DNA of 22,200 nt from a virus: IMG/VR virus record IMGVR_UViG_3300000405_000048, positions 2,658 to 24,857 of that record; one strand, given 5' to 3'. The stretch's first letter is position 1, and each line of letters begins with the position of its first letter. A program made the translations under genes and the position numbers. Below, piece by piece: positions 2,431-21,000 of this stretch. The notes under the pieces were generated by a model. It was not told where the DNA came from, ran no database searches, and saw only the letters and a program-made list of their open reading frames with translations.

Positions 2431-2999
2431 TTGATGAAAACGCACTTGGAAATACAAAAGAAGAAGTAATTATACCTCATAAGGTAGATAGAAGTAAATG
2501 GAATAAATCAGTTTATTTTATATTACCTATGATTGGACTTAATAGTAATTATCCTAATTTAATTAATTCTTATTTAGGAGATATAGTTAATAAACCAGAA
2601 TACAATTATGAAAAAATATTTGTCCATCTAAAGTATAGAGACGACAAAAACATAATAAATAGACCTTATTATAATTCATTCTATAGAGACCAAGATATAG
2701 ACGGTAATATAAGTTATATTTATATATTTGATATACCAGATCATTTTAATTTAGATTATAAATTATTTTGTGATGGAGCTTATTCTAGATTTTCTAAAAG
2801 ATATAAAGACCAAATATTATCACTTATAAGAACAAGACCTATACAAAATAGTCCAACTTATAAAGTATTATATAAAACTTTAGATTTAAAGAAAATAATA
2901 GAAGATATGATTGGTGAAGATCTACCAATGGATGCTGAAGTTTGTAGTATTACAAATCTAAGTAGAGAAATTAGATCAACAGAGGAAAGGGATATATGA
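2427..2999 (+). CDS. Conserved-looking phage protein of unknown function
   Basis: I do not recognise a domain in this 190-residue protein. The N-terminal 20 residues are polar, then a hydrophobic stretch (VYFILPMIGL) precedes alternating strands and helices rich in Tyr and Asp, including YIYIFDIPDHF, which looks like a core strand. No signal peptide, zinc ligands or nuclease motifs are evident. It is joined to the exonuclease (ATGA, 2427-2430) and to the following DUF1599-like gene (ATGA, 2996-2999) by 4-base overlaps. That makes it an integral part of the replication transcript and suggests its product is made in step with those proteins. Confidence 0.8.
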   Translation: MIDENALGNTKEEVIIPHKVDRSKWNKSVYFILPMIGLNSNYPNLINSYLGDIVNKPEYNYEKIFVHLKYRDDKNIINRPYYNSFYRDQDIDGNISYIYIFDIPDHFNLDYKLFCDGAYSRFSKRYKDQILSLIRTRPIQNSPTYKVLYKTLDLKKIIEDMIGEDLPMDAEVCSITNLSREIRSTEERDI

Positions 3000-3373
3000 G
3001 CAACAGCAGAATAAAAAGACTCGTAATGACTAATGAATTTATGGATAATGTAATAAACATCAGAGTTGAACACACTGTTGATATATTATCTAAGAAAGCA
3101 TTAGAATATGTAAGAAATAATGATAGACTACATAATTTTAATGTAGGCGCAGAATTAGAAAACAAAACTAGAGAAGAAGTACTTCATAGTTTTTTTCTAA
3201 AACATTATATAAGTTATCTTGATATGTTAGAAGATATTAAAAATGATAAATTACCAAAAAAGTCTTATGTAGACGAAAAGATGGGTGATATGATCAATTA
3301 TCTTATATTGCAAGAGGCTTCGATTAAACAGAAAATAATAGAAAAGGAAAGGGAAATTAGTGAAAGTGAGTAA
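2996..3373 (+). CDS. DUF1599 / Nmad1-like putative nucleotide pyrophosphohydrolase
   Basis: This 125-residue all-alpha protein resembles DUF1599 (nucleotide modification-associated domain 1), a phage family related to MazG-type NTP pyrophosphatases. Family-like landmarks are K34 and EY at 37-38 (here ALEYVRNNDRLHNF; the usual form is roughly K-x-x-EY-x(5)-D-R-x-HNF), K69-H70 followed by YLDMLED, and the C-terminal DEKMGD-x2-NYLIL (93-105), whose acidic residues would bind metal. The likely role is hydrolysis or sanitising of deoxynucleotides, possibly linked to nucleotide pool control or modified bases. The substrate cannot be read from sequence. It overlaps its upstream neighbour by 4 bases and its downstream neighbour by 14. 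Confidence 0.65.
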   Translation: MSNSRIKRLVMTNEFMDNVINIRVEHTVDILSKKALEYVRNNDRLHNFNVGAELENKTREEVLHSFFLKHYISYLDMLEDIKNDKLPKKSYVDEKMGDMINYLILQEASIKQKIIEKEREISESE

Positions 3374-4250
3374 GGAAAATATACAAAAAGAATTTATTAA
3401 GAATCAATTATTAAACAATAAAGGTTATTTATCTAGTACAGGTGTACTTAAAAAAGGATATGCTTTTATTGCTAGTAAGTTTGATTGTACTCAAGTTCTT
3501 ATAAAAGAAATAGTACAGGAACTTAGACAACAGTTTAAGTACGAGCCTGTTAATGTTGAAGATATTAAGACAGTTAATGTTATTAATAAGAGTAAAACCA
3601 ATATGTTAATTATTGGTGATCTTCATGCACCTTGGATATTAGAAGGATATTTAGAATGGTGTAAAGAATTAGAAAAAGAATATAACTGTAATAAAGTTGT
3701 ATTTATAGGTGATGTGATTGATTCTGGAGCATGGAGTTTCCATGAACATGATGTTGATGGGATGAGTGTTGGAGATGAGTTAACAGCTTCTATTAAGCAA
3801 TTAAAACTAGCTTATGAGTTATTTCCAACAGCAGATGTAACTTTAGGTAATCATGATTTACTAGTTGCTAGAAAAGCTCGAGCAGCAGGTTTGTCACAAA
3901 GATTTATTAAAGACTTTGGAGAGATTATAGAAGCACCTAAATCATGGATATTTAGACATGAATTTATATACGATAATGTAAGATATATCCACGGTAGCGT
4001 AGGTAATGCTTTTACAAGAGCTAAAGAATCTCGTATGAGTACTGTACAAGGTCATCTTCATAGTCAATCATTTCTACAATATTCAGTATCTGAAAAAGAT
4101 GCTATATTTGGATTACAGATAGGATGTGGAGTAGATAGAGAGGCTTATGCATTTGATTATGCTAAACCTATGCCTAAGAAACCAGTAATAAGTGCTGGTG
4201 TTGTATTAAACAACGGAGAATTACCTATATTAAGATTAATGAAATTATAA
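3360..4250 (+). CDS. Calcineurin-like metallophosphoesterase with N-terminal HTH-like region
   Basis: A two-metal phosphoesterase with the full motif series: D87-x-H89 (IGDLHAP), G117-D118 (FIGDVID), G163-N164-H165-D166, H211-G212 and G231-H232-L233-H234. About 80 residues precede the catalytic domain and include a helical stretch (23-58, GVLKKGYAFIASKFD then an amphipathic helix) that resembles a helix-turn-helix, suggesting the enzyme is directed to DNA. No ATG is available before residue 82, so translation must begin at GTG, either 3360 or 3366; I keep the first. The start lies inside the preceding gene (14-base overlap). Substrates could be DNA ends, cyclic nucleotides or phosphoproteins. 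It is the largest of three phosphoesterases in this block. Confidence 0.88.
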   Translation: MKVSKENIQKEFIKNQLLNNKGYLSSTGVLKKGYAFIASKFDCTQVLIKEIVQELRQQFKYEPVNVEDIKTVNVINKSKTNMLIIGDLHAPWILEGYLEWCKELEKEYNCNKVVFIGDVIDSGAWSFHEHDVDGMSVGDELTASIKQLKLAYELFPTADVTLGNHDLLVARKARAAGLSQRFIKDFGEIIEAPKSWIFRHEFIYDNVRYIHGSVGNAFTRAKESRMSTVQGHLHSQSFLQYSVSEKDAIFGLQIGCGVDREAYAFDYAKPMPKKPVISAGVVLNNGELPILRLMKL

Positions 4251-4266
4251 TTAAAAGAAAGATCAG

Positions 4267-4527
4267 ATGATGAAGAAGAGAAATACAAAAGATAACAAAT
4301 ACAGTAGAGTAGAAGAATTAATAATTAGTAGAGTACAAAATGGAGGAGTACCTTCTAAAACAGGTTATAAAGGAGTAAATAGTGATAATAGACCGGGTAG
4401 AAAACCATATAAATCACAATTCCATATAACATATAATAATAGAATGTTAAATATTTCATTAGGTAGTTATAATACTCCAGAAGAAGCTTATATAGCTAGG
4501 ATTAAATTTATAGATAGTTTAAAATAA
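4267..4527 (+). CDS. Small AP2-domain DNA-binding protein
   Basis: An 86-residue basic protein whose residues 32-84 match the AP2/ERF fold used by phage homing endonucleases and integrases: TGYKGV, then a basic three-strand sheet (KPYKSQFHITYNNRMLNISLG), then SYNTPEEAYIARIKFID as the C-terminal helix. The typical motif is SGYKGV...LGxFxTxEEAAxAY. No HNH nuclease is attached, so this would be a stand-alone AP2 DNA-binding protein, perhaps a regulator or the remnant of an HNH-AP2 homing endonuclease. The start may be either of two adjacent ATGs (4267 or 4270). It is 16 bases after the phosphoesterase gene and is followed by a terminator-like hairpin. Confidence 0.75.
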   Translation: MMKKRNTKDNKYSRVEELIISRVQNGGVPSKTGYKGVNSDNRPGRKPYKSQFHITYNNRMLNISLGSYNTPEEAYIARIKFIDSLK

Positions 4528-4537
4528 TAATAAAATT

Positions 4538-4560
4538 AAGGAGAGTTAATAGCTCTCCTT
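4538..4560 (+). terminator. Hairpin with short U-tract, probable terminator
   Basis: An 8-bp stem (AAGGAGAG with CTCTCCTT), extendable by a G-T and a T-A pair, surrounds TTAATAG and is followed by TT on the plus strand. It lies between the AP2 gene and the 83-residue gene. As with the hairpin at 32-54, exactly 13 bases separate the stem from the next ATG. It may divide the plus-strand block into two transcripts, or serve as an RNA processing or stability element. Confidence 0.65.
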
Positions 4561-4573
4561 TTACATAAACGTT

Positions 4574-4825
4574 ATGAAACAAAAAAAGAATATAAAATTA
4601 AAAAATGTAAGATTAACTAAAACTGCCGATAATGCTTTTAAGGGTTCCCATCCTAATGGTATAATAGAAGGAACTGTTAGAGAAGGATTTGAATTAGTAC
4701 CTCCTACAATAGGAGAAGCTTATTGGGTTGGTAATTACTTTAGAACATCACCTGTTACTATGATATTAGGTAATGGAAAATTTAGAACACTATATTCTAC
4801 TTATAAAATAAAATATATAAAATAA
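4574..4825 (+). CDS. Small hypothetical protein, 83 residues
   Basis: I do not recognise a domain. The N-terminus is strongly basic (KQKKNIKLKNVRLTK), and the rest is predicted to be mainly beta: EAYWVGNYFRTSPVTMIL, then a Gly turn, then RTLYSTYKIKYIK. The FRTSPV...STYKI layout recalls small phage proteins that fold as a single beta barrel, but this is an impression only. It begins 13 bases after the hairpin and ends 8 bases before the next phosphoesterase gene. It therefore appears to open the second half of the plus-strand transcript. Confidence 0.7.
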   Translation: MKQKKNIKLKNVRLTKTADNAFKGSHPNGIIEGTVREGFELVPPTIGEAYWVGNYFRTSPVTMILGNGKFRTLYSTYKIKYIK

Positions 4826-4833
4826 TAATTAAT

Positions 4834-5385
4834 ATGAAGAATTTTTTCACAACAGATTATCATTTTATGCATAATAATGTAATCAGATATGATAACAGAC
4901 CTTTTAAAGATGTTTATCATATGGGAGAAGTTATTATACAAAAACATAATTGTATTGTATCTAAGGAAGATCATTTTTATTATCTAGGAGACTTTTGTTT
5001 CAATATTAGTAAATTAGAAGAATATCTATCTAGATTAAATGGAAAGAAATTCTTTATAAAAGGTAATCATGATAAAGATAAACACATAAAAATATTTGAA
5101 AAATATGGAGAATATCTTGGTGAACAAAAACGTATTCACATTAATGGTCAAGATATAATATTAAATCATTTCTCTATGAGAGTATGGGATAAACATCATC
5201 ATGGAGCAATTCATCTATATGGTCATTCTCATAATAGTCTGGAAAATTCTCCTAATGGAAAATCAATGGATGTATTTATAGGAAATAATGATTACTATCC
5301 TTATGAATTAAATGATATACTTAAAATACTAAATAATCGAGAAATACAAAATGTAGATCATCATTATAATTATGAAAAAAAATAA
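4834..5385 (+). CDS. Metallophosphoesterase, MPP_AQ1575-like
   Basis: A compact calcineurin-like phosphoesterase (183 residues). Motifs are D8-Y-H10 (FTTDYHFMH, where the family usually has SDxHFGH), VIRYDNRPF at about 16-24 (characteristic of the subfamily), G52-D53 (YLGDF), G77-N78-H79-D80, H112 (NHF) and G130-H131-S132-H133 (YGHSH). This resembles the small MPP_AQ1575-like subgroup common in bacteria and phages, for which I know no firm natural substrate. The C-terminal tail is polar. Its last 14 bases overlap the next phosphoesterase across a run of eight A residues. Confidence 0.85.
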   Translation: MKNFFTTDYHFMHNNVIRYDNRPFKDVYHMGEVIIQKHNCIVSKEDHFYYLGDFCFNISKLEEYLSRLNGKKFFIKGNHDKDKHIKIFEKYGEYLGEQKRIHINGQDIILNHFSMRVWDKHHHGAIHLYGHSHNSLENSPNGKSMDVFIGNNDYYPYELNDILKILNNREIQNVDHHYNYEKK

Positions 5386-6058
5386 AACTATATGGCATTT
5401 TTCTGATACCCATACATTTCACGATATGATGAAAGTACCTAAAGCAGATATAGCCATATTTTCTGGTGATTGTTCTAATCCTAGAGAAAGTTTACCAAAT
5501 TCTATTGAGGTATTAAAATTCTTAAAATGGTTTGGTAGTTTAGATATAGAATATAAAATATTTGTAGCTGGTAATCATGATACTTCTATAGAAAGAAAAA
5601 TCATAACTCAATGGGATTTTATAGATAATAATATAATCCATTTATGGGATCAACAAGCTGTTATAGAAGGTATTAAAATATATGGTAGTCCTTACACTCC
5701 TACGTTTGGCACTGGATGGGCTTTTAATAAGGACAGAGGAAATATTTATAAAGTTTGGAATAATATACCAGACAATGCAGATATAGTCGTTACACATGGT
5801 CCTCCTAAAGGAATACTAGATCTTTCTTATAATAGAGATAACGCATTAGAATTTTGTGGAGATTTAGCTCTTAAAAAGAGATTAAAAATTATACAACCAA
5901 AATTAGTATGTTTTGGTCATATACATAACTGTGATAATATTACTAATCAAGGTTATACAAAATTATCTGATCATCAAACTATATATTCTAATGGATCAAT
6001 AGTTACTGATGGTAGATTTGGACAAATAAACAATAGTGGAAATGTATTTGAATTATGA
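5372..6058 (+). CDS. Metallophosphoesterase, MPPED / 239FB-like
   Basis: A second phosphoesterase directly overlapping the first, 228 residues long. Motifs are D12-T-H14 (HFSDTH), G32-D33 (FSGDCSN), G67-N68-H69-D70, T141-H142-G143-P144-P145 (THGPPKGILD) and F181-G182-H183-I184-H185, followed by a terminal SNGS segment. The THGPP...FGHIH...NGS series is typical of the MPPED1/MPPED2 (239FB) group, whose members hydrolyse cyclic nucleotides and other phosphodiesters in vitro. It is clearly a different subfamily from its two neighbours, so it is not a recent duplicate. It ends by ATGA overlap with the 57-residue gene. Confidence 0.87.
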   Translation: MKKNKTIWHFSDTHTFHDMMKVPKADIAIFSGDCSNPRESLPNSIEVLKFLKWFGSLDIEYKIFVAGNHDTSIERKIITQWDFIDNNIIHLWDQQAVIEGIKIYGSPYTPTFGTGWAFNKDRGNIYKVWNNIPDNADIVVTHGPPKGILDLSYNRDNALEFCGDLALKKRLKIIQPKLVCFGHIHNCDNITNQGYTKLSDHQTIYSNGSIVTDGRFGQINNSGNVFEL

Positions 6059-6228
6059 GTAAGAAAAAAACAATAGTAGTTGAAGGAGAAGCAAATTATG
6101 GTAGATCATATCATTTAATAATAATAGGTGATTTTATTCAATTTGATTGTTCTGATGATGAATATGGACCAATACAACTCCATTTATCTATATTAGAAGA
6201 AGCTATTAAAAAACATAAAGAAAAATAA
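6055..6228 (+). CDS. Small hypothetical protein, 57 residues
   Basis: A short open frame fills the gap between the phosphoesterase and the MazG-like gene. It starts with an ATGA overlap (6055-6058) and ends TAATG at 6226-6230, sharing one base with the next start. Because both ends are coupled and the frame is open throughout, I take it as a real gene. The product begins MSKKKTIVVEGEANYG, continues with a strand-like LIIIGDFIQFDC and an acidic DDEYGP, and ends in a basic helix (LEEAIKKHKEK). No known family is recognised and there is no signal peptide or membrane segment. Confidence 0.7.
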   Translation: MSKKKTIVVEGEANYGRSYHLIIIGDFIQFDCSDDEYGPIQLHLSILEEAIKKHKEK

Positions 6229-6611
6229 TGGTAGAAGATAGAGTGCAAAAAGTATTAATAAAAGAAGTAGTAGATAATAGTACTTTAGAATACTGTTATC
6301 AAAAATTAGCAGAAGAATTATTTGAATTAGGTGAATTAGTTATGAAACAGATAACTAAACCTAAAGGAGCTAATTCTGATGAAAGAATTAATCACCTTAT
6401 TGAAGAAATGGGTGATGTATTATTAAATGTCCAAGGATTAGCTATTAAGTTAGATGTAGAAAATCAAGTAGACAAAAGAATTAAATATAAACTTGATCAA
6501 TGTTTAAATCGAGTAAAAAAGCAAAAAAAAATATTATCTGAAAATTTATCATTAGGTATTGTAATTGAAGTTAATGATAATAGTTTTTTTGTAAACGAAG
6601 ATGAGTATTAA
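6228..6611 (+). CDS. MazG-like nucleotide pyrophosphohydrolase
   Basis: A 127-residue helical protein with the MazG metal-binding pattern: E29-E30-x2-E33 (AEELFELGE) in the first helix and E59-E60-x2-D63 (IEEMGDVLLNVQ) in the second, followed by helices (VDKRIKYKLDQCLNRVKKQ) as in phage MazG-like dNTP or NTP pyrophosphatases. Such enzymes hydrolyse (d)NTPs to monophosphates, and some phage versions are thought to act on host alarmones. The last 25 residues are an acidic extension outside the family core. Its ATG shares one base with the preceding stop (TAATG), so translation is probably coupled. Confidence 0.72.
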   Translation: MVEDRVQKVLIKEVVDNSTLEYCYQKLAEELFELGELVMKQITKPKGANSDERINHLIEEMGDVLLNVQGLAIKLDVENQVDKRIKYKLDQCLNRVKKQKKILSENLSLGIVIEVNDNSFFVNEDEY

Positions 6612-6630: not shown

Positions 6631-7014
6631 TTGATAAAATTTCTGAAAATATTATTTGTATTATTAATAGTTTTATTAAATACTGTTAATGCACAAATAA
6701 GTACTAAAGAAGTCTATGAACTATTAGATAAGTACGAGATAAAGAATAAAGATGGGGCTATAAGAGTAGCTATCCATGAAAGTAATTGGTTTAGATCTAG
6801 AAGAGCTGTCCAAGATAATAATATATTTGGTTTCTTAGTTGGTAAACATATATTTGAATCTTATGATGAAGCTATACTAGCGTATAAACGTAGAGTTGAA
6901 TCAAGACTTAGAGTAGATGAAAATTTCTACTCTTTTTTAAAGCGAATTAAATATGCAGCTGATCCAAAGTATATTTGGAAATTAAAACAAATAAAATATG
7001 ACAAAAAAATATAA
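6631..7014 (+). CDS. Secreted glucosaminidase-like (GH73-type) lysin
   Basis: A probable exported peptidoglycan hydrolase of 127 residues. Residues 1-21 form a clear signal peptide: basic start (MIKFLK), hydrophobic core (ILFVLLIVLLN), then VNA before Q22. The body recalls the lysozyme-like glucosaminidase fold (FlgJ/GH73): AIHESNW with candidate catalytic E50, NNIFGF at 63-68, a YDEAILAYKRRV helix, and FLKRIKYAADPKYIWKLKQI, which matches the family's usual C-terminal '.YATDP.Y..KL' segment. It is short for the family, so it may be a minimal domain. It would act in the periplasm to help lysis. The start is TTG, as no in-frame ATG exists nearby, and is supported by an AAGGAG 8 bases upstream. 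The gene overlaps the next one by 17 bases. Confidence 0.7.
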   Translation: MIKFLKILFVLLIVLLNTVNAQISTKEVYELLDKYEIKNKDGAIRVAIHESNWFRSRRAVQDNNIFGFLVGKHIFESYDEAILAYKRRVESRLRVDENFYSFLKRIKYAADPKYIWKLKQIKYDKKI

Positions 7015-7857: not shown

Positions 7858-10800
7858 TTATTTTTGAAGATCTTCTGCTTTCTTCTTAGTTTGTTTATAT
7901 ACTTTATCATATTGTTTCCAATAAGGAACTATATCTCTAACTTCTTTAAGAACTTTAGGATTTCCTTTATTAATTCCTTTAGTAATGACTTTATTCTTTT
8001 CTGATCCAAAAGCTACTTCACCTAAAGAATAAAAAGCTTGACCTAATTCATTTAATGTCTGTATTAAAGCCATCCTAGATATAATATCTGGATATTTAAA
8101 TACATTATAAAATTGTAATCTATCTGTAGCTATTCTATTAGAATGATCTGACATATATTTAACAAACATAGTTAATGGTGATTTACTCTTATTAAACGAA
8201 GATTTATTTTTATATATTCCTAAATTAATAATATTATAAAACCAATCCTGTAAAGCATTAGGTAACCACCAAGCATAATCATCATCGTCTTCTGGAGGAG
8301 GCATAATTAATAATGGTAAAAAAGTAAAAGTTATGATTTGAATTAAATCTCCTATTATTTTTCTAGCAGCTATCATCTCATCTTTAGTTATATCTTTTTT
8401 ATTAAGTAACATATTTTGATTTTGTGTAATCAAACTCATAACACCTAAATAACTATTTGTAAAAGTTTTAGATATTACTCTATTACCAGTTATAAAAAAT
8501 CCTTCATCATAATTTCCTGTTTTATAATTATATCTTTTACCTTCGAATCTATCGGCGATCATAGCTGGTAACCATTTTCTAAATAATATAGCTACTTTAT
8601 ATGTAATTTCATTACTGTGTACAGATGAATTATCTTTAGAATAATCTCCTTGATTTTTAGAGTTAATATTTATGATAGTATTTTTATGATTTTTAATAAA
8701 ATTATTTACATCTGTAGTACCAGTCAATGCTGAATTAAATACCAATCTATCATTTTCTACAGAAAACAAGCTCCACAAACTATGTTGTTTACCATCCGTA
8801 CCTGTTATCTTTTGAGAAATTAAATAAGCAACCATAGATGATTTATGAATAGTATCTTCACCTAATTGTTGTAATATAAATGTTTGATCATATATATAAT
8901 TAAATCCTTTAACAGCTATGTTACTGCTTTTTACTTTAACCTCTTTTTTAATATCATACTCGGCAATTTCATCTAATGGTTGTATAAGATTAGATAATAA
9001 TTCAACCTTAGTCATATTAACGTCTGGTTGTAACCATTTAGTTCGTTGACTAAAAGCATCTCCTAAATATATACCTAGTCCTGTTAAATATTGTCGTTTA
9101 CCATAATATCTTCCACCAAAAGCTTCTGTTATATTGGATGTTATACCTGCTGCTAAGTTACCTATTGCTGATAAAACATTAAATCCTAATTGTAATACAC
9201 GAGTATAAGTTAATAAATGTTGTACTAGAGTAGACCAATAAAATTTATTTTCACCTACTTCTTTTCCATCATTATCATATATTTTAGTAGTAAGTAATTT
9301 AAATTCTATTTGATCTTGTGTATCTGTTTTAGTAATGGTTTTATCTATATATAATTCAAATGCAGCATTTATTCGAGATTGTTCTCCTGATATACCTTTT
9401 TCTCCATAATTCTTTTTAGCAATAATATTTTGAACAAGTCTAGCTATAGGTAATACCTTAGTCATTTGTTCATACTCATTACCAAAGGAATAGAATTGAA
9501 ATAAAACTTCACCTAGATCATTAGATTTTTTATTAGCTTCAATCTCACCAATCATTTTTAATCTAACTTGATCTTGAGTAAGTTCTTTAATAGTAAAATT
9601 ATTTTCTAGTTCTCCATCTTCATTATAAAATACAGGACTTCCTGAACCAAATAACATAGTTTTTACTCCTAATTTAATAGATTTCATAATATTTAAAGGA
9701 CTTAATCCATACCATTGAAATACTACATCTTTAATTAAAGTAGGTATTTTTTCTTTATTTTTTAATCCAACAAATTCGGGTAATTTATCATATGTTTCAG
9801 CTACTTTTTCTTGAAAATATTTATAAAAATCATATAATTCTTCATTACCAACAGATTTTATATACTCAAACTTAGGATTATTATATTTACTATCTTTAGT
9901 GGGTGTATAATAATTCTTTTTAAGCCAAGACTTAGCATTTCCTATTTCTGCGGGTGTTGCTGTACTTGAATATCTTTGTTTAATATATTTATTAACAGTA
10001 TTATAATACTCATTATTATAAGACTTAACTAAATCTAATCTATCTAAATGATTTACATCAGATAATAAATTATAAACTTTAGTTAAATCTACTATACCAA
10101 ACATATTAGCTAATTTATTTTTTTTAGCCCATTTAATCAACTTTCTTTTATGTTCTAATATTTCTTCACCTGTTTTCTCAGAGTCTGATCTAGCCTTCTT
10201 AGAACCTTCTACAGTTAAAGAATGGATTAATTGTGATTCTAATCTTGGATAGTCTCCTAATCCTCTAAAATATTTTTCTAAAATAGATACATCTGGATTA
10301 TTTTTAAGTAGGTCAGATATATCTAGAGTTTTTTCATCTAATCCTGATAAATTAAGATTATTTGTTGCTGTTTGACTAATAAAAGGAGATATAAACTGAT
10401 TAATTAACTTATTAATTAATATATCTGATTTCCCTTTTACATGATACATACCATTAAACTTAGAGAATAGATGTAAAAAATTATAATCATTAGATAAATC
10501 TTCTATATCAGAAGGATTATTAAGATCGTAATCTTTATTTTCAATTTCATTCATTTGTTGTAAAGCTGCGTTAGCATACTCTATTTCAAATAATCTTAAA
10601 TCAGATGTATCATTTATATCTACAAGATCTTGATTTAACATTATGTTGTAATTTTCTAAATCTTCTATTTCATCTTGTAAAGGTTTTAAAGTATTTTCTA
10701 AATCATTTATTAAATCTTTCCAAACTTTACTTTTTTCATATCCTTTGTCATATACACCACCTCTTGAAGCAATATAATCATCTACAAGTTCTCTTGCTAA

Positions 10801-12057
10801 TTTATTATAATCACGTTCAATAGATCTAATGTTCTGTTGTATTTTTTTAATTTCTAAATTAGTTTTACCAACTGCATATTTTATACGCTTATGTATAGTT
10901 AGAATAGCTTTCTCAAGTTCTGATACGTAATTTCTATCTTTATTAGCTTGTTTTAAATAACTATCTATTTCTCCTATTACAGTCTTTTTACTTATTTTAC
11001 TATTAAAATCTACATTATCAAAATTTACTAACTCAGGAGTACTTATGTTAATAAAATCAAATAAGTATTTTTGAACAGTTGTTATATCTACTTTTTCAAC
11101 CAATGGAGATAATCCTAATAATTGTCTAAAAGCATCAATTAATTTATTTAATAATGTTGGTTTTTTAATACCTAGTTCATTAATAAATTCAGGGTTAGTT
11201 AATATTTCAGTTACAAATTCAAATTTGTTAGTAAGTCCATAATCATTGGTCATACTCGAATTCTTAACAGACTCATATAATTTAGTAATCTGATTATCAA
11301 AGTTTATCTCAGCTTCCGACTTAGGTGCACCTAACGCGTTAACTGTATATGCGTGGATTAATTCATGTAATATAGTTTCATGCCATTTCTTTTTATCTAC
11401 ATATTCTAAACGCTTATTTAGTGTGATATTACCAGTAGCTGAATTATAATTACCTAATACATTTTCGTTTAATCTATTAACATCAAATTTAACAAAATTA
11501 ATCTTATCTACATTATCTAATAATAATTTAATAACTTTACTAGTAGATTTATTATTATTTTCATTCAAAAGAATTTCTAATACTTCTTTAGCATTTAAAT
11601 TATTAAATCTAGAAAGCTCGGTTAAATTATTTTCTACTGTTTCTTTATTTATATTATTAAAAATATTTTTATAATAATCAATACTATATCCACCACTATT
11701 TTGTATAACAGTAAAAGTATAATCAGGAAATTGAGCACGTAACTTTCTTAATTCTGCGTATGATTTAAAAAGATCCCTTCCATGAGTTTTTATTTTATTT
11801 TTGGTAATGAAGTCTCTTACAGGATCTGGATTTAATACATTATTAAATACCTTAACAGCATCTTTAACATTCAATTCACTATTATCATCTAATTCATAAT
11901 CATTAGGATCAACAGATTTAGAAGCTAAATAAATTCTCTTAGCTTCTGTTCTATTATTATTTGTATAAGACAACAAATCTGTAAACAATATGCTGTCTAC
12001 AGATATACCTTCACTATTACTTACTACTGGAATTATACTACAACTATTACTTGCCAT
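7858..12057 (-). CDS. Giant probable virion-ejected protein with N-terminal zincin-like domain
   Basis: A 1,399-residue protein if started at the ATG at 12057, one base after the polymerase stop (TAA-T-ATG). An in-frame ATG at 12084 would add nine residues and overlap the upstream gene by 26 bases; I prefer 12057. Near the N-terminus H231-E232-L-I-H235 (ILHELIHAY) is a zincin HExxH motif, with E280 or E284 (KFEFVTEIL) as candidate third zinc ligand. Residues about 355-485 are charged and probably coiled coil. About 960-980 is small-residue hydrophobic (NVLSAIGNLAAGITSN), and 1238-1255 (LIQIITFTFLPLLIMPPP) is membrane-like, followed by EDDDD. The tail is basic. Its place beside the virion RNA polymerase suggests a packaged protein injected with DNA. 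The protease role is inferred from the motif only. Confidence 0.8.
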   Translation of the reverse strand: MASNSCSIIPVVSNSEGISVDSILFTDLLSYTNNNRTEAKRIYLASKSVDPNDYELDDNSELNVKDAVKVFNNVLNPDPVRDFITKNKIKTHGRDLFKSYAELRKLRAQFPDYTFTVIQNSGGYSIDYYKNIFNNINKETVENNLTELSRFNNLNAKEVLEILLNENNNKSTSKVIKLLLDNVDKINFVKFDVNRLNENVLGNYNSATGNITLNKRLEYVDKKKWHETILHELIHAYTVNALGAPKSEAEINFDNQITKLYESVKNSSMTNDYGLTNKFEFVTEILTNPEFINELGIKKPTLLNKLIDAFRQLLGLSPLVEKVDITTVQKYLFDFINISTPELVNFDNVDFNSKISKKTVIGEIDSYLKQANKDRNYVSELEKAILTIHKRIKYAVGKTNLEIKKIQQNIRSIERDYNKLARELVDDYIASRGGVYDKGYEKSKVWKDLINDLENTLKPLQDEIEDLENYNIMLNQDLVDINDTSDLRLFEIEYANAALQQMNEIENKDYDLNNPSDIEDLSNDYNFLHLFSKFNGMYHVKGKSDILINKLINQFISPFISQTATNNLNLSGLDEKTLDISDLLKNNPDVSILEKYFRGLGDYPRLESQLIHSLTVEGSKKARSDSEKTGEEILEHKRKLIKWAKKNKLANMFGIVDLTKVYNLLSDVNHLDRLDLVKSYNNEYYNTVNKYIKQRYSSTATPAEIGNAKSWLKKNYYTPTKDSKYNNPKFEYIKSVGNEELYDFYKYFQEKVAETYDKLPEFVGLKNKEKIPTLIKDVVFQWYGLSPLNIMKSIKLGVKTMLFGSGSPVFYNEDGELENNFTIKELTQDQVRLKMIGEIEANKKSNDLGEVLFQFYSFGNEYEQMTKVLPIARLVQNIIAKKNYGEKGISGEQSRINAAFELYIDKTITKTDTQDQIEFKLLTTKIYDNDGKEVGENKFYWSTLVQHLLTYTRVLQLGFNVLSAIGNLAAGITSNITEAFGGRYYGKRQYLTGLGIYLGDAFSQRTKWLQPDVNMTKVELLSNLIQPLDEIAEYDIKKEVKVKSSNIAVKGFNYIYDQTFILQQLGEDTIHKSSMVAYLISQKITGTDGKQHSLWSLFSVENDRLVFNSALTGTTDVNNFIKNHKNTIININSKNQGDYSKDNSSVHSNEITYKVAILFRKWLPAMIADRFEGKRYNYKTGNYDEGFFITGNRVISKTFTNSYLGVMSLITQNQNMLLNKKDITKDEMIAARKIIGDLIQIITFTFLPLLIMPPPEDDDDYAWWLPNALQDWFYNIINLGIYKNKSSFNKSKSPLTMFVKYMSDHSNRIATDRLQFYNVFKYPDIISRMALIQTLNELGQAFYSLGEVAFGSEKNKVITKGINKGNPKVLKEVRDIVPYWKQYDKVYKQTKKKAEDLQK
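11353..11367 (-). other. HExxH zincin motif in the 1,399-residue protein
   Basis: Codons for H-E-L-I-H (residues 231-235) within WHETILHELIHAYTVNALG. This fits a zincin metallopeptidase active site, with the flanking hydrophobic residues expected for the active-site helix. Confidence 0.75.
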
Positions 12058-12058
12058 A

Positions 12059-15000
12059 TTAACATAATGGGTTATTAGAATCATCTGTAAAATTATCTAC
12101 ATCTGAATCTAGTTTATTTAATTTATCTTCTTTATCAAAAGAATCATCTATTGCTTTTTGCATTGATATATATATATCATCAAAGATACTATTATTTTCT
12201 GAATTTTCCAAAAGATTTTGTACTTTTTGAAAAGGCAGTTCATCAACATCAAAACCTATTCTATCAGATATTGTAGCAGCTAAATCTCTAACTGTTTGTT
12301 CAGAAGCTAAAATACCAGCGTCTGAACTAGTTTGATTTTTTTGATAATTTACATCATTTTCTGTATTATCCAAATTTTCATTAGTATCTGGTACAATACT
12401 TACCTTTGGTTCATTATCATTATATATTTGTTTTTCTTTATCTATATTTTTAACTACTCTTGAATAAGAATTTATAAACTGTACATCTGTAATAGTTGAA
12501 TCAAAAGCTGTATCTTCAATAACTCTTACTTTACTATAATTAACTTCTATTGCTTTAGGTAAGAATCCTTTATCCATATAGAAATCAACAAGTTCTTCTA
12601 ATGTTAATGTTTTAAGTTCTCCATTACCAATAAAAGCTTTAACAGATTCTATTAATCTACCTCTTGTAACAGTTTCTTGAGTAACTGGGTTAGTAGCACC
12701 TTCATATACTGCTAAGTTATAAGGTATACCCTTCTTAGATAAAGCTACTAATTTATTATCGCCTGTAATTTTATGTAACTCTTTTAATGATGCTTCAAAT
12801 GATGCAGCACTAGTAATATCTATTTGTTTTAATATATCAAATTTAATAACATAATTAATATGTTTTTCATTATCTGTAATTTTTAAATTAGCTTTAATAT
12901 CAGGATGAATTCCTATATATTGTAATTTATCATGATGATTTTCTAATACAGCTAATGAAGTTAACATATCTATAATATTATTAGTTAAATTACTACTTAA
13001 AGAAGTATAACTTTCATAATTTGTATCTTTAAAATCATTATTTAAATTATCTAAAGATTTAGATACATCTCTAAATACCCATGATGGAATAGTATTAATA
13101 AACGATTTGTTTTTAAATTGTAATCCGTCTTTATAATAAGAATAATAATATAATTTCCTAGCAAAATCAGTAGTTTTAGGATTCATAAATAACTCTTTGA
13201 AAGCATTATTTACATTTGTATAGAAATCTCCTTGTGCTTTTATTCTAGTTGGAAATTCAATACTAATAACCTTACTTGAACTACTAGGTTGTTTTAATGA
13301 CAACATCTTGATTAAAAGATTGTTTCTAAAGTCAGGATCTTTTTTTAATTTAAATAAATCTCTACCTATAGAATTATTTCCAGATTTATGAATCATATAA
13401 GCTGCGTTATCTTTAGCAGTTATAAGCTCTTGATATTTTTCAGGAAAATTAGTTTCTAAGTAAGCTTCATTAGCCTTATTCATAAAATAAGGAATTAAAT
13501 TTTTAGAATTAGTATTAACTAGTCCTCTTAGTTTTTTAAATACAGGAGTATTCATAAGGAAGAATTCCTTAGAAGTATCCATAATCTTTTTATAGATTAT
13601 AATATTTTGTATTGTATTAGGATCGTTTAATAAAGTTTCTCTAGCATCAAATGGTGTCTTATTAATATTATCATCTGTTTCGAATACAGGCATATTAATA
13701 TCTTTATATATTTTATTACCTACAACTCTAATATAATTTTCTTCTAATAATTTAGTTATTAAATCATCATAGGTAAGTACATCATCATTAATAAATGTAT
13801 ATAAAAAATTTAATTGTAAAGAATCTAATACAGTTTCTAATCTTAAATTATCATCAAATGTTGATTTAACACCTTTATTCAAAGACATTAATGCAGATAC
13901 ATTAGAATTATAACCAGCTTGTAATTGCATCTGATTAAATATTGATTCCGCTAATCTTATATGAGGAAGATCATATATATCTAAATCATTTTCATTTAAT
14001 GAAGAAATTAAATTTTCAGAAGTAAAAGGTTTAATGTTTTGAGCACTAAATTTTTGATAGGCTAATTTATAAGCATCTTTTTTATTTTTAGAAACACCTA
14101 AGTGTACTTCTAGTTCTGTTTGTAATTCTTCTAATTTTTTATATATATTTTGATCGTTAGTAATAAATGCTCTGATAGTAGGTTGGTTTATAAACAATAC
14201 TGTTTCTTCCATACTATATCCTACAGACAACATATAAGCTGCTACTGGCAAAGTATTAGCATCAGCTGTTCTAGAATTAAATGTTAAAGTTAATAACTTA
14301 GCTAATTGTTCCTTAGCATTATCGGTCATAGCTGATAATAGAGTAGATATATTATCATTCTTTCTATTACTATCAGAATCTATAGTATAAATACCTCCAA
14401 ATCCATTAGCTAATTTACCATTAATAGTAGGTAAAGATACCTCAGAAAATAACTTCTGATCATAAGTAGATAATAAAGCATGGGTTACATTAGATAATGC
14501 AACTGGACCAATACCATCTTTACCTTCCATATTATTTCTATTAGCATTATATCTAGCTAAAGGAGTATTAGGAGATATTGATTGATTTTGATCTATATTT
14601 AAAGCTTCCATAACAATATCTGCCACATCTTTAATAGAAGATAATGATGACGGAATAATAGCTGCTCTTTCTCTTACATAATCATTAGTTAAAAATTTAA
14701 TTTGAGCTTCTAACATAAGATTATTATTTAATCCTACATTAATAGTATTGTTTACTATAAATTCTAATGCGGTAGTAGGCATATTTAATGAAGACAAAGC
14801 AGCTTCTAACGAACCTAAAGTATTTATTCTATTTTTTAATAATTTATTATTCTTTAAATTCCAAGTTATATACTCTTGATATTTATTTTCATCAGTAGAA
14901 GCTTCACCATATAATCTAATTCTTCCATTATCTTCCACATAAAAATCTGGAGTATGGATAAATTCAGAGTCAATATCAAAATCTGCTCCTGATAGATATA

Positions 15001-18000
15001 CAATTTCTTTAGGAAATATACCAACAGAACCATATTCCATAGGAAGAAATCCTACTACTTTTAAACTAATCATAGAGTGTTTATCCTGAGTAGGAATACG
15101 TACTCCAAACATTTTTAAAACCTTTTGTACATCAGCATCACTAGGATTTTTACCGAGTAATTCTTCTGCAAAAGGAGGTAATAAACATTCAGAATAATAA
15201 TTTCCATCATCATCTAATTGCATATGAGCTAATGATCTCATTTTACCAGTTTTAGCATCTTTAACTAATATACCTGCATCAGATACTAAAGATACTTTAA
15301 GTCCTGGAACTTTTTGAGATAATACTCCTTTACTAAAATGAGATAAAAATAATTGTTCAGCTTTATTAACTATAGGCCCTAAATTCCAATTGAATTGTCT
15401 TTCACCAGTAATGGGATCAGGACTAAAGAAATTAGATAATACTTCATCTGAACCAGACTCAGTTATTGTTTGATAAAACTTTTTAGTTAACTCTTTTGAA
15501 TTAACTTCTCCAGATATAGGATCTCTCATATATGCCAGAGCTGTTTTAAAGCCCTCTAAGCGATTATCTGCTAGTAACCCTCTATATAGTTCCCTAAGTT
15601 GACCTACAGTTTTTATATCAGAGTTATATTTAAAATCTATTTCTAAATTATCTGATTGTTCACTATGTACTAATTGAATTAATTGTGTACCGTGGATAAT
15701 AGATCTTTTACCAGAAGGAGTTTCAACTTGCAATCTCTTAAATTTATTTTCTAATTCCATAACAGAACCAGTAAAATCAAATTTACCATCTTGTGCATAT
15801 TCAGCAGGACTTATTGTAGCCATTTTAGAAGCAGATTCAGGTAAAGCCTGATCTACACCTTGATCTAACATACTAATATACTTATTAAATAAGTATTCAA
15901 ATCCTTCTTTTGCTTCAGCAGGTCTTCCTTGATCATCAAGTATTACATTTTCTGATTCATCAGTTTTACCTACCAATCTTGGAGATAAAGCTATTTCAGA
16001 TAATTTAAAATAAAAATCACCATTATACGATACAGTCTTTGTTGAATTTAAAGCTGCATTATTATCTTCTAATGTATTTTTCTCATCCCATGTAATTTCT
16101 TCACCAAGTTTTAATTTATCATATATATCAGAAACTTGCTTAGGAAATCTTCCCCATCTCTGTAGTTGTAATATTTTATGATCTAATGTAACATAAGATT
16201 GAGCATCAGCTATTTGTATCTTACCTTTATCTATTTGTTTAATAAATGTATTTAAAGATTTAGCCTTAGCTTTATCATTTAAAGAACCATCTTCTAATCT
16301 TAATCTTTCTTCTTCTATTAATTTATCTCTTTCAAGTTCTGATAAATTTTTAACATCAATATATTTTAAAGGTTCTTTATATACACCAACTCTAGTAGTA
16401 CCTGTACCCATATCTGCTCCAGAGCCAATAATACCCTTAGCACGTTTAAACCAATCAACAGTATTTTTAACTTTCTTAGAATAGTTATCTAGTAATAAGT
16501 TATTGATACCTAAAGTATTAATATACGCATTTAAATATTGGTTATTTACTAATTTAGATATTTGAGCAGGAGTCATTTCTGACTTACCTTCTGTTAAATA
16601 ATTTCTTTTTAATAACTCAACATTAGGTAATAAAGATAATACATTATTAGCGTTTAATATATCAGTATAATCTTGTATATCTTTTTCTAATTTAATTTTT
16701 ATTAATTGTACTATTTTATCTTTTTCATATAATAATTCACTATATACATCTTCTGGAGTAATAACATTATCTTTAGAAGTAATATCATCTATGTATCCAT
16801 CTAAATCATAACCAGCAAATTCCATAAGTTTGAAACCTCTAGCTCCTAATTTATCATTATAACCATTCCATATAGTAGTACCTTCTTTACCAAATTGTTT
16901 TTTAACTTTATTAATTCTAATAACTTCTTGAGCTAAGTAATTAAATAAAATATCTGTTACATTATCATTAACATCATTATATTCTTCTACAGGTAAAAAT
17001 ACAGCGTAACCAGTATTGGAAGCTTCCATCTGATCTATATTAATCATAGCACTTTCACCAAGCTTTATAGTCTTACCTGTTTGTTCATCTATAGTACTTA
17101 ATACTTTTCTGTTAGATAAAAACATAAGCATATCAGCAAGTAAATATTCTTGGGAATTAAACTTACCAAATGTAATACCTTCGCCTTCTTCTGTTTGACC
17201 TATATCTCCTTCAATACTAGTAATTCTATAACCATCAATCATAGAAGGAGTAAGATTAGACATAATAATATCTAAATTTTCATGTCCTAATAAATGATTA
17301 AGCACAACATTTTCTAAAGGATCTATAAAATCATCCTTCTTATTTTTTTCATCACGTAATAATTTGTTTCTGGTAATAGTGTTTCTTAACCATCTGAGTT
17401 TAACTAAACCAAAAGAAGGTCTTATAATAGAGTATACACTTTTACCATCAGCATTTTGAAAACTACTTTCACCTATTGTGGGATCAAATAAAGCGTTTTG
17501 TTGAGCTATATTTTTTAAACGTGATACAGCACCTCTTTCTTTATTTTTATCATCTTTAGTAGTTATAAATGGATTGTATTCGGATTTAAATTCAGTAACT
17601 ATAAAAGGTATATTACCACCATCATATAATCCTTCAACACCTGAGAAAGCGTTAATTAAATCTTTAGCCTCTTGATCTAATCCTAGATAAGGAGATTTTT
17701 TAAGTAAAGAATAAGTTATGTAACCATCTGATAAAATTATAGATAGTTTTTTAAAGTGTTCTCTTATTTCAGAAGATAGTTTTTTAGCTTCTGCTAAACT
17801 ATTAACAATAGCATTTTCACTTCTGTTAACAGCATCAGCAGCTGCGTTAATTGATTTTTTTACATCTTCATCAAATTTACCATCTTCAAAACTAATATTA
17901 TAGTTTTGTAACCAGCTATTAAACTGTATATCTTTTGCAGAATTATTATTTGTTTCTAATAATCTAGATTGTTCATTAGATTGTAATATAGTATACCAGG

Positions 18001-21000
18001 AAACATTTTCATTATTAAATGCTGTTACAAATTTTCTCCATAAATCATAATTTTTAGTTATGTTTTGACCATCTAATAAACTATCATTAGTTAAACCCAG
18101 ATCAAGAATAAGCTGATTAAATACAGCATTAATATCTTCATCAAATTCAGCTAGTGCTTTAAATCTAGGAAGTACTTTATCTTCTTCTATACCAGCTAAT
18201 GCTCTAACTAATCCTCTATATACTTTACTAAAATCTACAGCTTCATCAATATCTTGACCATATTCATCTTTAGTTTTAATAACAACTAATGATATGTATT
18301 CTCTTAGTACTTTACTAAATGATGTTTCACCACCAATAGACCAAGGATCTGTATCAAAGTTTTCACCAACATCATCTATTTCTTTTTGTCTATTTTCGTT
18401 ATCTATATCAGTGTCTATATCAAATATTGATATTTTAGATTTAATATCTTTCTTTAAAGCAGCTATGTTTTCAGGTAATGTATATATATTTCTTTTCTGT
18501 TCTAAATTTCTAGTCATAACCTCAATATACTCATCATTATCTGACAATCCTTTTTCATCTAAGAAAAGTTCATAATAAGCATTATCGTCTAAACTATAAA
18601 AAGCAGCTTTTTCAGCTAATAATATATCTATAATTTTATCATCTGTTAAATTAGGATAAGCTTTATTAATTTTAAGTTGTAACAACTTTCTAGTTAAATT
18701 AGCTAATACAGCCTGACCTTCAAGTTGTGAAGTAACAATAGTAGTTTTATTAATTTCGTCTATACCTTTTTTATAAATTTGGAATACTGATTCATTTATA
18801 TTATTAGTAAATTTATTATTAGTAATTAAAGCATTTTTAAATTTACCTCTATTAATGTTATAGAATAAAGCTTGTACTTCATCCATATTACCAGTAATAA
18901 AGTTAATCCAATTAATTATTTTATTCCAAATAGATTTAAGAGGATTATTTGTATTAAAGTCTTTACTATATTCTTTAAAGTTATCTGCTAATTTTTCTTC
19001 TAAAAATAATTCACGAAGTTGAGTATCATTATAATTAATATATACAGAAGAACTATTTCTTAAATCTTCTAAATCTTTTTTAGTAGGTTTATTAGTTCTG
19101 GATATAATATTATAAGCTGCTTGTATTTGTTTATCTGTAGAAAATAATCTGAATATAGCGTGGAAAGCCTCATGATATTCAGTACCTTTAGCAGCTTTTG
19201 TAGATAAGTATATAACACTATTAGCAAAAGCTCCAAATGTTATACCATTATTTTTTATATCTCCTAATAACTTGTTAATGTCATCTATAGAAATAGTATC
19301 TGGTAGATTTTTATTAATCCAATTAACAGCCTCATTATAGTCCATAATTTCTTCAGAGGTTCCTATAGAAAATACAGGATCTGAAGAAGGACCTTTATAT
19401 TCATTAATAATAGCTCTTATTTTAACAGCTATACCAGCTTTCTTAATTTTAGAAGCTGTTGTCAATTGATCTAATAAAGGTTGAGCTTTATTAGTAATTT
19501 CTAATTTAATTTCTTTACTTAAATTATTAAACTCAGAATCAAATGATGATAAATCAGATATAGTATTGTTTATAATATCAGGAGTAGTTACTTCTTCAGT
19601 TACCACAGCATCTGCAAATTCAACTATTTCGGTTTCTTCTACAGGATTATTAACTAATAAAGAATCTAATTTATCTTCATCAATCTTAATACTTACACTA
19701 GGATTTTTAAGTACAGTAGGTTTTAAATTAATAGATAAAGTATTTATTGTTGTTTCTACTGATGCGTTATTAACTAAAGGAGTTCTTAAGTTAATTCCTG
19801 TAAGTTCTAATCCAGCTAATAAATCATTTAGATTAGAATATTTAACATTATCTAAATGAACTTTTTTTCTACTTCCTTTAAGTCTAAGTCCATAAAATTT
19901 ACTTGTTTGTGTAGATTTACTTGTTTGTGTAGGTGTAGTTAATTGTAATTGAGAATTTTGTTTAGTAGGATCATTAGTAGCTACAAAGATATTATTTTCT
20001 AAGTATCTATTTATATCTCCTACAAGTTTTTTAAATTGAGCAGGATCTTCAATAGTTTTTAGTTTCTCTACTTGTTCAAATAAATAACTATATAAAGTAT
20101 CTTGAATATCTGTATTTACTTGATTTTGAGAACCAACCCAGTATAGTTTCCCATTATTAGCTCTAACCAATACTACATATCTTTCTTTTAATCCTTCTGG
20201 AATAGCAGGAATATTATCTAACTCATTATTAGGGTCACTAAATAAATTAGTAATTTCAAGACTGTTAACACTATCATATATATAGTAAAAAGATTTACCT
20301 GACTTACCAACTAGTTTAGCTGCTGGAAAATCTTTAATAAGAGTTCTACCTATATTAGTATCTACAAAGAAATCTCCATTCCAAGATAAATTAAATCCAA
20401 TAGATTTTAAAGTTTCAGCATCTAATCTACCTTTTTCTTTTAATAAAGCAATTAATTTAATATTTCTAGTTTGTGTATTTAATAAACCTTGTTCACTAAG
20501 ATTAACTTGTGATGGATCTGTAACAGTAAAACTATCTAACTGATTTAAATTACCTAAGTTTTTACCTTGATAACTTAATGATATAACTATTTTAGGATTA
20601 ACAATATTAGTACCATTATTCCATTTACCAACAACAGCTCCTGCAACTATTCCTAGATCATTTGCTGTATAGTAAACCATCTCAAGCTGAGATAATATTT
20701 CTTCAATGGGAGTATTTAAAAATATTTTATCAAATTCTTCATCAGACCAATAATCTTTATGATTATTCATAAATCTAAGTCTTTCTACTCTATCAAAGAA
20801 ATTAATACCTTTTACTAAAGGTTCATTATCTCTATCAGCAGCATTATTATCAAACTCTTCTTGAGCTATAACATCATTAGCTTGAGATTCAAGTTTGTCT
20901 CTTGTTTCCAATACAATTTTAGTTACTGTAGTATGGAGTGATTGTAATTCAGATACATCTAATCCTTGATCTCTATAAGCAGGTATAAGCTGCTCAATTT

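Follow-up and report, generated by a model that had tools for sequence, protein, structure and literature searches.

Three Distinct Metallophosphoesterases Stacked at a Gene-Swapping Spot in the Early Operon of a crAss-like Phage

In this study, three metallophosphoesterase (MPP) genes were analyzed at positions 3360–6058 of the window, the whole 22,200-nt stretch of phage DNA under study. Relatives show that the trio, made up of known phage enzymes, was picked up piece by piece at a site of gene exchange amid nucleotide-metabolism genes and is not a conserved three-part system. As the best explanation, with a probability of about 0.58, the genes encode separately acquired, intact phosphoesterases, complete in their catalytic residues, in the nucleotide and nucleic-acid maintenance part of the early operon. 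MPP1 is best read as a core gene of the replication block, and MPP2 and MPP3 as accessory genes. Phage MPPs are widespread yet nearly uncharacterized, and a literature search on metallophosphoesterases of crAss-like phages found no paper.

Organization of the Locus

The source phage was crAss-like (related to the gut virus crAssphage) and had a complete, terminally repeated genome of about 90.5 kb. A second contig of 92.5 kb with a 1985-bp terminal repeat was 100% identical over the 22.2 kb of the window, so the trio locus is not an artefact of one small contig.

The early operon lies on the plus strand. Its replication/recombination part (68–2999) encodes a primase-like protein (68–1018), a RusA-like protein (1023–1649), a 5'-3' exonuclease (1618–2430), and a hypothetical protein (2427–2999). 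The following genes encode a conserved protein assigned to phrog_6802 by PHROGs (2996–3373); MPP1 (3360–4250, 296 aa, GTG start), which overlaps the preceding ORF by 14 nt; a small protein judged AP2-like by eye (4267–4527); the minimal enzyme MPP2 (4834–5385, 183 aa); and MPP3 (5372–6058, 228 aa). A 57-aa ORF (6055–6228) starts at the MPP3 stop and is followed by a MazG-type pyrophosphohydrolase (6228–6611). The slot is bounded by two convergent genes on the minus strand (7858–22165) for giant proteins of 1408 and 3368 aa, the second of which contains the crAss RNA-polymerase motif DFDID.

Identification of the Three Metallophosphoesterases

The original prediction of three MPP ORFs was confirmed, and all were intact. 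Each had been credited with a complete motif set, and the eight metal-ligand positions were found by family alignment in MPP1 (D87, H89, D118, N164, H165, H211, H232, and H234), MPP2 (D8, H10, D53, N78, H79, H112, H131, and H133), and MPP3 (D12, H14, D33, N68, H69, H142, H183, and H185). The ligand motifs of the MPP fold (D-x-H, GD, GNH[D/E], H, and GHxH) were invariant or nearly so in all three alignments. The proposed assignment to different subgroups also held: the enzymes fell into phrog_221 (MPP1, E 1e-40), phrog_547 (MPP2, E 8e-41), and phrog_1649 (MPP3, E 4e-11), and family HMMs, each built from 72–77 relatives, gave no cross-matches among the three enzymes. The Pfam PF00149 gathering score was passed by MPP1 (31.6 bits) and MPP3 (49.4 bits). 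MPP2 had no Pfam match; its modeled fold and phrog_547 nonetheless marked it as an MPP. The trio was thus real, but the argument that a phage rarely needs three such enzymes was weakened by other crAss-like genomes, two of which pair MPP2 in tandem with an MPP of another kind, while others hold two or three MPPs genome-wide.

The phrog_221 profile covered residues 56–286 of MPP1 (E 1.1e-40). The HTH-like N-terminus claimed for this protein corresponded to a predicted three-helix segment, and an N-terminal GYL motif was invariant in crAss-like homologues. In a structural search, the MPP1 model was nearest to YfcE (Z 15.3) and MJ0936 (Z 14.7). The PolD DP1 exonuclease (Z 14.2–14.0) gave the longest aligned stretch (196–222 residues), and Mre11 scored about 12.5–13. 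The MPP core of the model was shared with the archaeal PolD DP1 proofreading exonuclease, Mre11/SbcD, and YfcE (Z 12.5–15), at a sequence identity of 11–18%. The top matches were nearly tied in Z (YfcE 15.3 vs DP1 14.2), and fold likeness leaves the substrate undecided. No chain was found by the MPP1 profile among PDB sequences.

The description of MPP2 as AQ1575-like agreed with both its profile (phrog_547) and its fold. The closest solved structure was the functionally uncharacterized Aquifex aeolicus aq_1665 (1XM7), with Z 19.8 and an rmsd of 2.3 over 161 residues. The MPP2 HMM also matched gp66 of mycobacteriophage D29 (64.5 bits, E 6e-21), a remote similarity between phages of different hosts.

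MPP3 had been called MPPED/239FB-like, and phmmer matched it to MPPED2 with E 1.5e-31. MPPED2 (239FB; PDB 3RL3–3RL5) aligned over most of the length of MPP3. The active-site residues were complete, including His183, whereas MPPED2 has Gly at this place (His in the 3RL4 sequence). Drosophila dMpped hydrolyzes cAMP and cGMP (PMC10547211). A calcineurin-like phosphoesterase of Elemovirus, a Flavobacterium phage, was 54% identical to MPP3 and located near primase/helicase genes; unlike in the window, no second annotated MPP was among the neighbors listed. Cellular relatives of MPP3 were restricted to one contig with phage-like gene content. Two enterotoxin-named PDB matches of the family alignment (E 0.02–0.03) were taken as chance.

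Distribution in Related Phages

The trio was not conserved as a set. Among 94 crAss-like loci, MPP1, MPP2, and MPP3 occurred together only in the window phage, and relatives carried the families singly or scattered. This is the outcome set beforehand as refuting, and the trio was rejected as a conserved module. Of the three families, MPP1 alone was present in L006, L294, L304, and L331; MPP2 alone in L266, L321, L323, and L193; and MPP3 alone in L144/L341/L342, L318/L344, L103/L104, and L105. No MPP was found in 34 of the 44 loci that continue for 7 kb or more downstream of the primase, some of these loci being duplicates. Apart from the phage itself, one relative of 5.3 kb was all that single-protein viral scans recovered.

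The cultured Cellulophaga phage phi14:2 (Crassvirales, Steigviridae) carries two of the families. Its g075, flanked by endolysin and tail genes, encodes an MPP1 homologue of 42% identity, and its g063 is an MPP2-family gene beside the convergent RNAP-associated gene. In contrast to the window, the two lie 28 kb apart, and no further MPPs were found in the genome.

MPP1 belongs to the replication block of the lineage and is under strong purifying selection. Between the window and its nearest relative, L006, MPP1 showed 86% amino acid identity and a dN/dS of about 0.12, against about 0.27–0.5 for neighboring genes. MPP1 relatives occurred in 636 phage records, and their neighbors included DNA polymerase/exonuclease or Erf genes.

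MPP2 and MPP3 lie in a stretch of variable content that separates MPP1 from the convergent RNA-polymerase genes; its makeup differs among relatives, which frequently have one or two MPPs there. In L006, the flanking genes are kept with no MPP2 or MPP3 between them. A recurrent site for MPPs in crAss-like phages is the slot where the early operon ends, next to the convergent RNA-polymerase gene: it holds MPP2 in phi14:2 (g063), MPP3 in L144 and L105, and MPP2 with a NinI-like MPP in L193 and L360.

A nucleotide-signal or nucleotide-pool module had been proposed, and the neighborhood is a nucleotide-pool or nucleic-acid block: the window has the MazG gene, and dGTP-diphosphohydrolase, dUTPase, RNR, thymidylate synthase, and UDG genes occupy this slot or lie close to it in relatives. 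MPP2 relatives occurred in 1,345 phage records. Neighbors of the MPP3 family included dNMP kinase, spore-photoproduct lyase, ThyX, MazG, DNA ligase, cREC, and PNKP phosphatase genes. Each family keeps its own genomic company: replication or lysis-boundary genes for MPP1; RNA ligases and kinases for MPP2, as seen in cultured phages; and dNMP kinase, ThyX, and photoproduct repair for MPP3. Together with the trading at one crAss-like slot, these neighbors point to concrete, testable substrates, and phi14:2 offers a ready test system.

Proposed Functions and Alternative Explanations

In the preferred explanation, the three enzymes would work in parallel, neither in one pathway nor as a complex. 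The N-terminal helical segment of MPP1 may bind nucleic acid, and its core may act as a DNA-end nuclease or phosphatase during replication or recombination. MPP2 would strip 2',3'-cyclic or 3'-phosphates off RNA or DNA ends or small nucleotides, a job plausibly done by its relatives beside RNA ligases and kinases. Like MPPED enzymes, MPP3 would hydrolyze cyclic nucleotides or other small phosphodiesters, and its products may return to the nucleotide pool.

Purely parallel roles are countered by the recurrent adjacency of MPP2 and MPP3 and the 14-nt overlap of their genes, which suggest that at least these two may work together. A functional pair, for example a diesterase followed by a monoesterase on one substrate, with MPP1 unrelated, is a somewhat unlikely alternative. 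In 50 MPP3-bearing records, five of the seven strong MPP2 matches, that of the window among them, lay within 1.5 kb of MPP3. The adjacency recurs with different MPP2 lineages and in both gene orders; the MPP3-adjacent MPP2s of the window and L097 belong to widely separated regions of the MPP2 tree, the two genes lie within 2 kb in Flavobacterium phage immuto, and the MPP2 and NinI-like tandem of L193 and L360 is analogous. However, most records with MPP2 or MPP3 hold just one of the pair, and dense early operons put unrelated small enzymes side by side. It is more doubtful still that Crassvirales maintain the slot at the operon end as a dedicated site, where an MPP2-type enzyme repeatedly joins another MPP unrelated to it (MPPED-type or NinI-like) to dephosphorylate RNA ends or host signal nucleotides in two steps; the window, with its three MPPs, would be the most elaborate case. 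That MPP2 and MPP3 merely hitchhike in a region prone to change, without any phosphoesterase role under selection in this phage, is very improbable: the interval is wholly different in L006, but the catalytic residues of both are complete, MPP3 shows dN 0.22 against dS 0.99 relative to L097, which has the nearest MPP3, and these MPP families reappear at this slot in further lineages.

Degradation of signals that serve host immunity (cyclic mono-, di-, or trinucleotides or cADPR-type molecules) by at least one of the enzymes, with the slot gathering them under arms-race selection, is rather unlikely. The known signal-cleaving phage enzymes Acb1 and Apyc1 have the 2H and MBL folds, respectively; the three enzymes here have the MPP fold, so they are not in these anti-CBASS/anti-Pycsar families. 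MPP3 matched PDC-S10 of PADLOC (E 1e-58), but this defence model is only a candidate built for host-side genes, and a literature search on it found no paper. MPPED enzymes hydrolyze cyclic mononucleotides (PMC10547211), the signal class of Pycsar, and calcineurin-like PDEs have been predicted as counter-nucleotide factors in jumbo phages (PMC7824862). MPP2 shares a family with D29 gp66, reported to hydrolyze mono- and diesters and cAMP (PMC12287305). A10ZJ24 gp48, a cluster-A relative of gp66, has a reported counter-defence function, although through host DNA damage and not signal cleavage (PMC12287305). The MPP turnover at one slot resembles accessory-gene selection, but the neighbors in relatives are mainly nucleotide metabolism and repair genes, not known anti-defence genes.

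Healing of RNA ends is unlikely in the window phage. In this reading, MPP2, alone or together with MPP3, would open 2',3'-cyclic phosphates on RNAs cut by host RNases and strip their 3'-phosphates for religation. An RNA ligase lay within 2 kb of MPP2 relatives in phiPsa381, BME3, PA10, Va1, KB57, TAC1, and VPG01; in a sample of 10 cultured phages, this held for 6. A PNK-like kinase adjoins MPP2 in VPG01 and the ligase in BME3, the MPP2 relative of Ps15 is near PseT, and L097 has the gene row MPP3-MPP2-AAA_33 kinase-RNA ligase. For MPP3, 6 of 8 cases had PNK/ligase genes no more than 2 kb away, where 1.8 were expected (p 0.0018, permutation), an optimistic value because L097 served as the seed of these families. 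In the IMG/VR records gathered around the MPP2 of the window, however, the linkage was not significant (6 of 17 vs 4.05 expected, p 0.2, permutation); Rnl1 was not close to MPP2 in these records, and PF09414 near MPP2 was weakly enriched by hand count. Some of the cultured-phage cases have a single widespread PRPP/NAMPT/RNA-ligase cassette in common, so they are not independent. No partner for an RNA-repair cassette of kinase, phosphoesterase, and RNA ligase was detected in the window phage: its complete genome had no PF09414, PF09511, or RtcB ligase match and no match to AAA_33, the only PNK-type kinase family searched.

Small Genes Flanking the Trio

Two MazG/DUF1599 enzymes had been proposed near the trio, and one was retained. 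The protein at 6228–6611 was a MazG (PF03819, 25 bits against a cut-off of 22), and it was homologous to the small MazG-like protein encoded directly upstream of MPP2 in phi14:2. The protein at 2996–3373, earlier described as DUF1599-like, had no MazG/DUF1599-type Pfam match, either itself or in two homologues, and hhalign found no link of phrog_6802 to MazG or dGTP_diPhyd proteins. Its homologues also adjoin MPPs in L006 and L360. A homologue of the AP2-like gene follows MPP1 in crAss-like L331, as in the window. By eye, the 57-aa ORF resembled a small ORF directly before MPP3 in crAss-like L144.

Identity of the three enzymes

Three ORFs, at 3360–4250, 4834–5385 and 5372–6058, each encoded an intact metallophosphoesterase (MPP1, MPP2 and MPP3). 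The eight metal ligands were complete in all three and conserved within each own-family alignment, and HMMs of the three families gave no cross-matches when searched against them. The presence of three distinct MPPs, as in the original prediction, was therefore borne out. A Pfam MPP domain was detected in MPP1 and MPP3. MPP2 matched no Pfam model, although its membership of phrog_547 was clear. Its predicted structure was a confident MPP fold (pLDDT 93), closest among solved structures to aq_1665 (1XM7, Z 19.8). MPP3 was MPPED-like (E 1.5e-31), with a histidine that MPPED2 lacks. The N-terminal segment of MPP1 was predicted to form three helices, carried a GYL motif common to crAss-like homologues and may bind DNA. 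In structural comparison of MPP1, PolD DP1 gave the longest alignment, and YfcE was level within about 1 Z. The predicted subgroups (HTH-like N-terminus, AQ1575-like and MPPED-like) agreed with these features of MPP1, MPP2 and MPP3, respectively.

Genome and operon setting

The source record, a virus contig, is 24.9 kb long. Over the window, it was 100% identical to a larger contig of 92,469 bp; because that contig carried a 1985-bp terminal repeat, the complete phage genome is available, at about 90.5 kb. A segment of 1000 aa from the 3368-aa protein matched crAss-like phage RNA polymerases. The MPP genes lie towards the end of a rightward early operon, which runs into convergent RNA-polymerase genes: primase, RusA-like, exonuclease, hypothetical, phrog_6802, MPP1, AP2-like, hypothetical, MPP2, MPP3, 57-aa ORF, MazG, glucosaminidase-like and hypothetical. 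The proposed nucleotide-metabolism setting was supported.

The glucosaminidase-domain protein (6631–7014) has homologues close to the exonuclease gene of crAss-like L294, L304 and L331. The 2.6 kb upstream of the window (L003:1–2675) contained a GIY-YIG-like ORF (1044–1802), possibly a homing endonuclease insertion, flanked by short ORFs (1–450 and 461–946) resembling replication/recombination gene parts. By eye, 63829–74285 of the 92.5-kb contig (L255–L259) held a cluster of class-II glutamine amidotransferase, ATP-grasp/amidoligase, gamma-glutamyl-cyclotransferase and class-I amidotransferase-like genes, possibly a phage module for peptide or metabolite tagging.

Conservation of the trio

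The nearest relative, L006 (5.3 kb), had the window's RusA-to-MPP1 gene order and a homologous MazG. Its MPP1–MazG interval held other small genes and neither MPP2 nor MPP3; the contig stops right after MazG, and copies beyond are possible. Among 94 loci around crAss-like primase and RusA genes, with a few added relatives, each family occurred alone in several phages, and all three together only in the window's phage. In near-complete crAss-like genomes, MPP1 was 28 kb from MPP2 (Cellulophaga phage phi14:2), 30 kb from MPP3 (genome of L105), accompanied by MPP2 and a NinI-like MPP in tandem (genome of L067), or accompanied by a NinI-like MPP (genome of L056). Because relatives carry the families singly or in other combinations, the interpretation of the trio as a conserved module was not supported; it is an unusual stack of known families.

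MPP1 was the most conserved protein compared between the window and L006 (86% identity, dN 0.09, dS 0.75; neighbours 54–73%). Its behaviour is that of a core enzyme.

In the slot next to the convergent RNAP-associated gene, phi14:2 carried MPP2, L144 and L105 carried MPP3, and L193 and L360 carried MPP2 and then a NinI-like MPP. MPP2 also adjoined or lay near MPP3 in L097, L124, L147 and L156. In quick FastTree trees, the window and L097 were sisters for MPP3 and far apart for MPP2, and their MPP2/MPP3 orders were reversed, which suggests that the two pairings arose separately. The MPP2s of L097, L124, L147 and L156 grouped together, so independent pairing events may be few.

L124 and L147 had identical gene order and sister MPP2s, with MPP3s from different tree parts; MPP3 was possibly replaced in place. 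The 57-aa ORF after MPP3 (6055–6228) resembled, by eye, a 62-aa ORF (L144:9826–10011) just before MPP3 in crAss-like L144. Both may be MPP3-associated small proteins.

Possible functions

MPP1 would be a nucleic-acid-bound MPP acting on DNA ends during replication/recombination. MPP2 may be a phosphodiesterase/phosphatase on nucleic-acid ends or small nucleotides, judging from the company of its relatives and D29 gp66 (PMC12287305). MPP3 would be a diesterase of cyclic-nucleotide type, like MPPED enzymes (PMC10547211). The three would work in parallel. A counter-defence role is possible, above all for MPP3 acting on cyclic mononucleotides. MPP3 matched the PADLOC candidate defence model PDC-S10 (E 1e-58); a literature search found no description of this candidate.

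As to genomic company, the commonest MPP3 neighbours across 45 loci were dNMP kinase, spore-photoproduct lyase, ThyX, MazG and RNase H-type proteins; two loci each had DNA ligase, DnaB or cREC proteins. MPP1 relatives lay, depending on the phage, near lysis, crAss tail-ring or replication/recombination genes. RNA ligase lay within 2 kb of MPP2 relatives in six of ten sampled cultured-phage genomes, partly within a shared PRPP/NAMPT cassette, and a PNK-like kinase adjoined the MPP2 relative in VPG01. In permutation tests for PNK/RNA ligase within 2 kb, MPP3 scored 6/8 (p 0.0018, an optimistic value because the families were seeded from L097), and MPP2 6/17 (p 0.2). The window's phage genome had none of three tested RNA ligase families and no AAA_33 kinase; within these families, a full RNA-repair pathway is thus not encoded.

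In the uncultured phage L097 (10001–13164), MPP3, MPP2, AAA_33 kinase and RNA ligase genes were consecutive and form a putative RNA-repair cassette that includes two MPPs. In a phage-like contig of a Cryomorphaceae MAG (L260:5375–6672), a gene resembling, by eye, a PNKP-type HAD phosphatase lay directly upstream of MPP3.
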